DNA from: Acidobacteriaceae bacterium
GTDB taxonomy: Bacteria; Acidobacteriota; Terriglobia; Terriglobales; Acidobacteriaceae
Length of the DNA: 43,865 bases
Assembly (NCBI GenBank): GCA_003152695.1
Contig: PMAT01000023.1
Location: 35,730-79,594, forward strand
Direction of reading: 5' to 3'
The position numbers and the translations under genes were made by a program. The notes under the pieces were generated by a model that saw only the letters and a list, made by a program, of their open reading frames with translations, did not search any database and was not told where the DNA came from. Positions 40,395 through 41,375 of this stretch are shown in pieces. Each line of letters starts with the position of its first letter. The first letter of the stretch is position 1.

Positions 40395-41375
40395 TTACGC
40401 CCACGAAGGATCTGCTTTGCGGACCGGTTCTTCGTCGCCGTCCGGCGCGCCGGTAAGCGGGAAACCGAGGCGTTTCCACTCATAGAATCCACCCAGCAGC
40501 GGACGCACCGGGCGGATGCCGTGCTTGCGTAATTGCAGCGCCACCCGGGCGCTGGTCGCTTCGTTGGGTCAGGTGCAGAACAGCACGATCTCCACACCGC
40601 GAGTGATCTCACCCTGCCGCGCCTCCAGTTCTTCCGGCGAGATCTGCAGAGCATGAGGCAAGGTCCTGGGATCAGTAAGCCGATCGAGCGGATGCCGCAA
40701 GTCGATAATGGTCAGCGGCTCGCCCGATTCCAGCTTGTGCTTCAACTCGTCGGGAGTGATGCGGTCGCCCTTGACTTGCTCGATGAAGCGCCGCCGCTCA
40801 TTCCACCGGTAGAAGACGTACGCAATCACACCTGCGACGAACAGCAGGAGCAGCGATCCCCCGAAGCGTGAGGCATCGGCGGCAATCAGATCAAGTTGCT
40901 TGCTGAACAGAAAGCCAAGCCCGGCAAAAGCGCCGGTCCACAGCATCGCTCCCAGAAAATCGAAGAGGACGAAGCGCGGAAAATCCACGCCCACCATTCC
41001 AGAAAGCGTCGGCGCCGCGGTGTTAAGGCCGGGAACGAACTTGCAAATCAACAGGGTCCGCGCGCCGTATCGGGTGAACGTGGTTTCCGTCTTGCGGACG
41101 CAAGAGTCGGGCTCAAGCGCGATGCGACACAGCAGGTTCAGCACCACCGCGCCGCGGCGCTTGCCAAAGAAGTACCAGAAGGTATCGCTGCACAGCGAAG
41201 CCAATGCCGGAACCAGCATGGCCAGCGCGAGATGCATGCGGCCTTGCCCGGCCAGGGCCCCGGCGGCCAGCAACAGCGGCGTCGCCGGAATAGGCAGTCC
41301 AGCCTGCTCGATCAAGACCCATACGAACAGCAGGGCATAACCGTAACGAACTACGAATTCGAGCATCTGGCTCAT
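40395..41375 (-). CDS. DedA-family membrane protein fused to a rhodanese domain, with in-frame TGA (possible selenocysteine)
   Basis: Reads as 326 codons with one internal TGA at 40569-40571. The DedA/SNARE-associated domain (about residues 1-195) has IEQAGLPIPATPLLLAAGAL, the FWYFFGKRRG segment, FVPGLNTAAPTLSG and several TMs. The rhodanese domain (about 212-310) has LTIIDLRHP, then LFC267-T-TGA-PNEATSARVALQLRKHG and RPLLGGFYEWKRLG. Related domains have Cys at the TGA position (C-x-C-P-N-E). Strong domain similarity continues after the TGA to a TAA at 40395, so the gene is either a selenoprotein or interrupted by a point nonsense change. If it stops at TGA the product is 268 aa and lacks half the rhodanese fold. 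Confidence 0.75.
40536..40554 (-). promoter_or_regulatory. SECIS-like hairpin downstream of the in-frame TGA
   Basis: On the minus strand, 14 bases after the TGA: a perfect 7-bp stem (CAGCGCC/GGCGCTG) with loop CGGGT. From the TGA to the loop is 21 bases. From family knowledge bacterial SECIS elements have an apical loop with an early G, about 16-37 bases after UGA. The fit is good, but GC-rich coding DNA makes hairpins by chance. Confidence 0.45.

Follow-up and report, generated by a model that had tools for sequence, protein, structure and literature searches.

In the window, a stretch of 43,865 nucleotides from an Acidobacteriaceae genome (contig PMAT01000023.1), we found a gene on the minus strand in which a DedA membrane domain is fused to a rhodanese domain and an in-frame TGA stands at codon 269. 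This UGA is very probably read as selenocysteine (probability about 0.95), because TGA recurs at the same codon in homologues, Cys and Sec alternate at this position, a SECIS hairpin appears to be constrained, the Sec machinery of the genome is complete and selection reaches beyond the TGA. SelB and Sec-tRNA-Sec would decode UGA-269 as selenocysteine, directed by the hairpin just downstream. The preliminary description of this DNA had proposed a candidate selenoprotein, a claim that gains support from the machinery, the TGA/Cys alternation, the fit to the bacterial SECIS model and the purifying selection.

The DedA-rhodanese gene and its surroundings

The reading frame begins with ATG at position 41375 of the window, meets TGA at 40571-40569 and runs on past it for another 57 codons before ending in TAA (40397-40395). 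Domains, key codons and the hairpin are listed in Table 1; the gathering cut-off for the rhodanese match is 22.2 bits. When we re-read the ORF, the features given in the preliminary description were recovered: the TGA at 40569-40571 within C-T-TGA-PNEATSAR was right to the base, the rhodanese frame continues for 57 codons to TAA, and a perfect 7-bp stem follows 14 bases after the TGA, with the loop CGGGT at 21 nt from TGA to loop. The source genome has a size of 4.5 Mb and is 99% complete.

Table 1. Position of the DedA-rhodanese gene and its predicted features in the window.
Feature	Position	Strand	Description
DedA(VTT)-rhodanese selenoprotein gene (predicted)	40395..41375	-	326 residues, Sec at 269; ORF with TGA read through; both Pfam domains over cut-off
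In-frame TGA, predicted Sec codon 269	40569..40571	-	context IVLFCT-TGA-PNEATSAR
Cys267 codon	40575..40577	-	aligned with the rhodanese catalytic-position Cys (YC of 3tp9); kept in 64/64 aligned homologues
SECIS hairpin (predicted)	40536..40554	-	7-bp stem CAGCGCC/GGCGCTG, loop CGGGT
VTT/DedA membrane domain, residues 29-154	40914..41291	-	Pfam PF09335, 55.8 bits
Rhodanese domain, residues 207-302, TGA inside	40470..40757	-	Pfam PF00581, 32.8 bits; Z 16.8 to 3tp9 (predicted model)
Cys83 codon, DedA domain	41127..41129	-	Cys in 64/64 aligned homologues
Cys92 codon, DedA domain	41100..41102	-	Cys in 64/64 aligned homologues

The adjacent genes are variable and say little about function. In the window the gene is accompanied by genes for a signal peptidase, a radical SAM/B12 protein, a PNPOx-like protein, a SCO1/SenC-like protein and carbamoyl-phosphate synthase. 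For eight relatives we inspected ten flanking stop-to-stop frames, which matched a histidine kinase, AIR carboxylase, an M18 peptidase, NadA, two glycosyltransferases and, in two cases (L031, L036), a carbohydrate phosphorylase; two of the ten frames remained unmatched, and no sulfur or selenium gene was found among them. On one Comamonadaceae plasmid (L185, positions 1-27) the DedA-rhodanese gene adjoins a gene of the D-cysteine desulfhydrase family.

Probable recoding of the TGA codon

A homologue of the protein was detected at E ≤ 1e-20 in 292 of the 300 genomes of the family. Among the matches listed, which cover 150 genomes, a single TGA occurs inside the homologue in 35 genomes including our own, and in all 35 it is located at codon 269, surrounded by the motif [FY]CT-U-P[NHS]EA[TS]SA. 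All 8 other genomes of the genus contain the DedA-rhodanese TGA form. The preliminary description had suggested that the TGA stands for Cys. This holds across the homologues, which alternate between the two: the retained rows without TGA carry TGT or TGC at codon 269 without exception (41/41). Further frame damage in relatives, named there as a sign of a pseudogene, was not seen: in those that we read, the frame continues beyond the TGA. Left out of the counts were L050-L055 (duplicates of genes in L021-L029), the duplicates L056, L094 and L150, the Cys fragment L067, L184, which falls short of codon 269, and L002 as an unrelated rhodanese.

TGA forms are not confined to the family but occur in 12 families of the phylum, 11 of them besides our own. 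A scan of 396 genomes of the phylum gave a homologue at E ≤ 1e-40 in 70, and the 23 TGA loci read all share the codon. We also fetched 12 loci of a second, more distant group of DedA-rhodanese proteins (about 30–36% identical) with TGA at the same codon; these loci, like L117 and L118-L121, were picked because the match listing showed TGA. L118-L121 are four short single-domain rhodaneses which carry TGA at the same codon and a hairpin with the loop AGTTT, and reach 101–106 bits with the model NF041203, under its cut-off of 115. L117 (G015:C7:377000-378943) is a rhodanese whose TGA likewise falls on this codon; about 496 open codons lie upstream of it, and it probably represents another domain architecture.

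The TGA might also serve as a selenium-responsive switch, low selenium leading to the 268-residue DedA protein with a partial rhodanese and ample selenium to the full enzyme, with both products of importance. The UGA does sit past the complete DedA domain, and such a switch is compatible with the selenoprotein explanation. However, none of the 41 Cys homologues read has a stop at codon 269 and the truncated form comes without evidence of function, so we regard this possibility as quite improbable.

Selenocysteine insertion at UGA-269 would depend on the hairpin. The bacterial SECIS model, as given in a figure legend of a 2026 review (PMC13188914), comprises a loop of 3–9 nt, a stem of 4–16 bp, a distance of 16–37 nt from the UGA and a minimum free energy ≤ -7.5, with a G among the first two loop positions. 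The hairpin agrees with this published model in all respects: its loop has 5 nt with a G at position 2, its stem has 7 bp, it lies 21 nt from the UGA, and the 53-nt stretch folds at -14.4 kcal/mol. Its folding energy is ordinary when compared with dinucleotide shuffles of the same stretch (z = -0.09). Since the energy alone is not significant, the case for the hairpin rests on its conservation. In the TGA rows loop positions 2–3 are G followed by G or U in 78/78, the stem has at least 4 bp in 76/78 and 5 pairs are formed in 69/78; among the Cys rows 4 pairs were found in 6/41, and 4 pairs together with the loop G in 3/41. The codons underlying the hairpin are nearly invariant in the 38 TGA genes of the main group (AGC for 35 of 37 Ser, GCC in 38/38, GTG for 33 of 33 Val, GCG in 38/38), whereas the same codons are variable in 25 Cys genes (GCC in 12/25, GCG for 16 of 24 Ala).

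Across 74 distinct TGA rows, 97.0% of the cells of a five-pair core are paired. Its covariation amounts to 0.046 vs 0.021 in shuffles, a value reached by none of 500 shuffles, and one inner stem pair varies as C-G, U-A, G-C and G-U. Two slide controls of the five-pair helix equal or exceed this value (0.046 at +1, 0.059 at -3), though far fewer of their cells are paired. In the seven-pair helix the covariation of 0.092 is above all slides; in 25 Cys rows 58.9% of the cells of this helix are paired, no better than in shuffles. With frozen codons and some compensatory changes, the hairpin is, judged from the alignment, a predicted SECIS element under constraint. One Cys (TGT) homologue from a Deltaproteobacteria MAG (L068, 3811-3852) has retained a SECIS-like hairpin (GAGCGCC-CGGGC-GGCGCTG); selB is present in its genome, and the gene looks like a recent switch from Sec to Cys.

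The preliminary description had named selA, selB, selC and selD as the genes to look for, and all four are present in the same genome, selD being split by a run of N. We obtained 556 bits for selA, 393 bits for selB (over cut-off), 66.6 bits for a tRNA-Sec with the anticodon UCA and 131 and 132 bits for the two parts of selD on either side of the N-run (L079/L078, G000:C141:29826-30574). A broken selD was considered and rejected, since the scaffold consists of N at the interruption. This selD carries its own TGA, followed after 20 nt by a predicted hairpin with the loop GGT, and is itself a predicted selenoprotein. Of the 8 other genus members, 6 have a TGA-bearing selD in one piece; in the remaining two (G213 and G063) no selD match was obtained at E ≤ 1e-25. 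tRNA-Sec is present in 9/9 genomes of the genus.

Besides the canonical tRNA-Sec, the source genome contains a second tRNA-Sec-like gene with a UCA anticodon (47.5 bits; L014 1496-1586, G000:C109:8425-8510). Its 3' half is near-identical to the canonical tRNA-Sec; the 5' half and the D arm differ. In two other genomes (G139, G063) tRNAs called as Ile with the anticodon TAT (L136, L137) score 58–60 bits as tRNA-Sec, and resemble the allo-tRNA-UAU described for soil bacteria including Edaphobacter (PMC7609411). A tRNA with a UCA anticodon, or another recoding tRNA, might read through UGA-269 and insert, for instance, Cys or Ser, giving a protein without selenium. The second gene with its altered 5' half speaks for this, and tRNA-Sec-like selC* tRNA-Cys as well as allo-tRNAs, the latter also in Acidobacteria, are known from bacteria (PMC7609411). 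We nevertheless consider this decoding very improbable: the canonical tRNA-Sec, selA, selB and selD are all in place, and among the tRNA-Sec matches at E ≤ 1e-7 there is no gene like the second one in the other 8 genomes of the genus, all 8 of which have the TGA form.

Reading of the UGA as selenocysteine is further consistent with the distribution of selB. Among the matches listed, selB (E ≤ 1e-60) was found in 32/35 genomes with TGA vs 19/115 without, homologues whose match contains TAA or TAG (G253, G141) being counted as non-TGA; Fisher's test gives p = 4e-16, a nominal value given the relatedness of the genomes. In the three TGA genomes without detected selB the situation varies: G173 has a TGA-bearing selD and a tRNA-Sec, G125 is 71% complete and G155 97%. 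With one genome per genus (n=60) selB is present in 32 of 37 genomes with a TGA rhodanese among the matches listed vs 5 of 23 others, the TGA calls of this set being taken from the match listing and in part read at codon level. Here selB went undetected in five genomes with a TGA rhodanese, four of which (G024, G036, G037 and G057) are 53–85% complete and one (G029) 96%.

Finally, of 13 gene pairs compared, 12 show the signature of purifying selection in the codons beyond the TGA, with pN/pS between 0.02 and 0.35 for codons +12 to +44. The outlier pair (L001/L022) has a pN/pS of 1.07, based on 6 differences (1.5 synonymous, 4.5 non-synonymous). A sequencing error, a pseudogene or a true stop ending a DedA-only protein therefore has next to no probability: the stop codon is literally present and a normal stop would leave a 268-residue product that retains the whole membrane domain, but dozens of genomes share TGA at this codon, with the rhodanese frame open in those read, the hairpin is frozen, and pseudogene and error are ruled out by the shared codon (35/35 among the matches listed) together with the selection past it.

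The rhodanese centre and the DedA domain

In the predicted structural model (mean pLDDT 82.2, pTM 0.72) the match to 3tp9 has an rmsd of 1.6 over 105 residues. Most of what the listed fold-search rows span is the rhodanese part (residues 196-314 of the model), and the structural comparison applies to that part. In the alignment with 3tp9, Cys267 falls on the Cys of its YC motif, which we take to be the catalytic position of rhodaneses, and the loop that follows is two residues longer than in 3tp9. Cys267, residue 269 (Cys or Sec), Asp225 and Arg227 are kept in 64/64 aligned homologues. The rhodanese domain is probably cytoplasmic, because basic residues follow the last helix.

From these residues a tentative catalytic scheme can be drawn up. 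Cys267 would take up sulfane sulfur as a persulfide, Sec269 would attack this persulfide to form a Cys-Sec selenenylsulfide, and thioredoxin or the Cys83/Cys92 pair would re-reduce the Cys267-Sec269 bond. As a whole we place this scheme somewhat short of even odds. The protein would be a membrane-anchored enzyme that handles persulfides, as a sulfurtransferase or reductase.

In a 2023 survey of the DedA family flipping of undecaprenyl phosphate (UndP) is tied to the acidic residues of reentrant helix 1 and a pair of basic ones in reentrant helix 2 (PMC10127716). We placed these flippase positions by aligning one DedA-only paralogue. E23, the first acidic residue, is kept in 64/64 homologues. 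None of the 64 has D or E between residues 24 and 40, and the second acidic residue is therefore missing. The first basic position is Lys112 (64/64), and the second is N, S, G, A or T in all 64, so that the basic residue is absent. The residue set of COG0586 UndP flippases is thus incomplete in the DedA domain. Both Cys of the Cys83/Cys92 pair are invariant in the 64 aligned homologues; in a pairwise alignment the DedA-only paralogue L003 of the same genome has no Cys at either position. Since some of the residues tied to UndP flipping are missing and the Cys pair is invariant, the cargo of this DedA domain probably differs from UndP.

It could still be argued that the DedA domain flips undecaprenyl phosphate in the ordinary way, with the rhodanese as its redox-sensing regulator, since the 2023 survey counts DedA-rhodanese fusions in the COG0586 subfamily of putative UndP flippases (PMC10127716) and E23 is invariant. 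We consider this unlikely in view of the loss of the second acidic and the second basic residue in all 64 homologues, and of the scores with the NCBIfam UptA models, which at 59.5 and 49.7 bits are far under the cut-offs of 250 and 300. Slightly better placed, but still doubtful, is a selenium-dependent membrane relay, in which the altered DedA domain with Cys83/Cys92 would, in place of undecaprenyl phosphate, move either electrons or a small sulfur or selenium molecule and hand them on to Cys267/Sec269. The reference list of PMC10127716 includes a title that connects DedA with selenite resistance (Ledgham 2005), and a role of DedA in selenite uptake is repeated in a soil review; we treat both as leads only.

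Relation to known selenoproteins

According to Table 1 of the 2026 review (PMC13188914), 119 selenoprotein families or subfamilies are distinguished, among them five rhodanese forms, the third of which (NF041203, rhodanese_LYCAU) has a CxU motif. In the preliminary description a C-x-U motif on a membrane-anchored sulfurtransferase had been considered new. This stands in part: a CxU rhodanese is already listed as NF041203, and the location of the site on a DedA membrane protein appears to be new. Like NF041203, which is the best NCBIfam match of its rhodanese part, the window protein is predicted to have Sec two residues after Cys (CTU). Unlike it, the protein includes a DedA domain, for which the 126 positions of the model leave no room, and it scores 69.1 bits against a cut-off of 115, which is reached in 0/60 genomes of the family. 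The table as available contains no entry for a DedA protein; it cites Haft and Tolstoy 2025 and PMC9879109, where an entry may still exist. Among the papers listed for DedA together with selenocysteine, or with selenoprotein and rhodanese, we found no earlier selenoprotein of the DedA family.

Fusions of DedA and rhodanese with the same order of the two domains have been described, e.g. PA1209 of P. aeruginosa (PMC12893004, PMC10127716). The available text of both sources makes no mention of Sec in them, and the family described here differs in its altered flippase positions. Betaproteobacterial plasmids encode homologues that are 33–38% identical among the matches listed (n=12). The three that we read have CxC in 3/3 and the DedA Cys pair in 2/3.

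Two further families in the review resemble the protein in part (PMC13188914). TsoB (NF045694) likewise combines a rhodanese with Sec, the rhodanese being joined to a DsbD-like part, but it has two Sec in the motif UxxxxU. With this model the window protein was not detected at E ≤ 1, and its homologue L034 reached 13.3 bits against a cut-off of 805. The YeeE/YedE thiosulfate transporter family is another membrane protein listed as a Sec family, but differs in its domain (PF04143) and motif (GUxSG); YedE is described as a predicted selenium-related transporter. Judged on sequence, the kind of Sec site is thus already known from rhodanese domains, and the membrane-bound architecture that carries it appears to be new.

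The finding would add a selenoprotein architecture that is present in 12 families of the phylum, the family of the source genome included. We expect that such genes are likely annotated as truncated DedA proteins. Because TGA and Cys codons alternate inside a single family, the role of Sec vs Cys becomes testable. In the 2023 survey the connection of rhodanese to UndP is called unclear (PMC10127716), and the Cys pair together with the lost flippase residues offers a handle on the function of DedA-rhodanese proteins. The membrane relay, if true, would mean a second chemistry for DedA proteins beyond lipid flipping.
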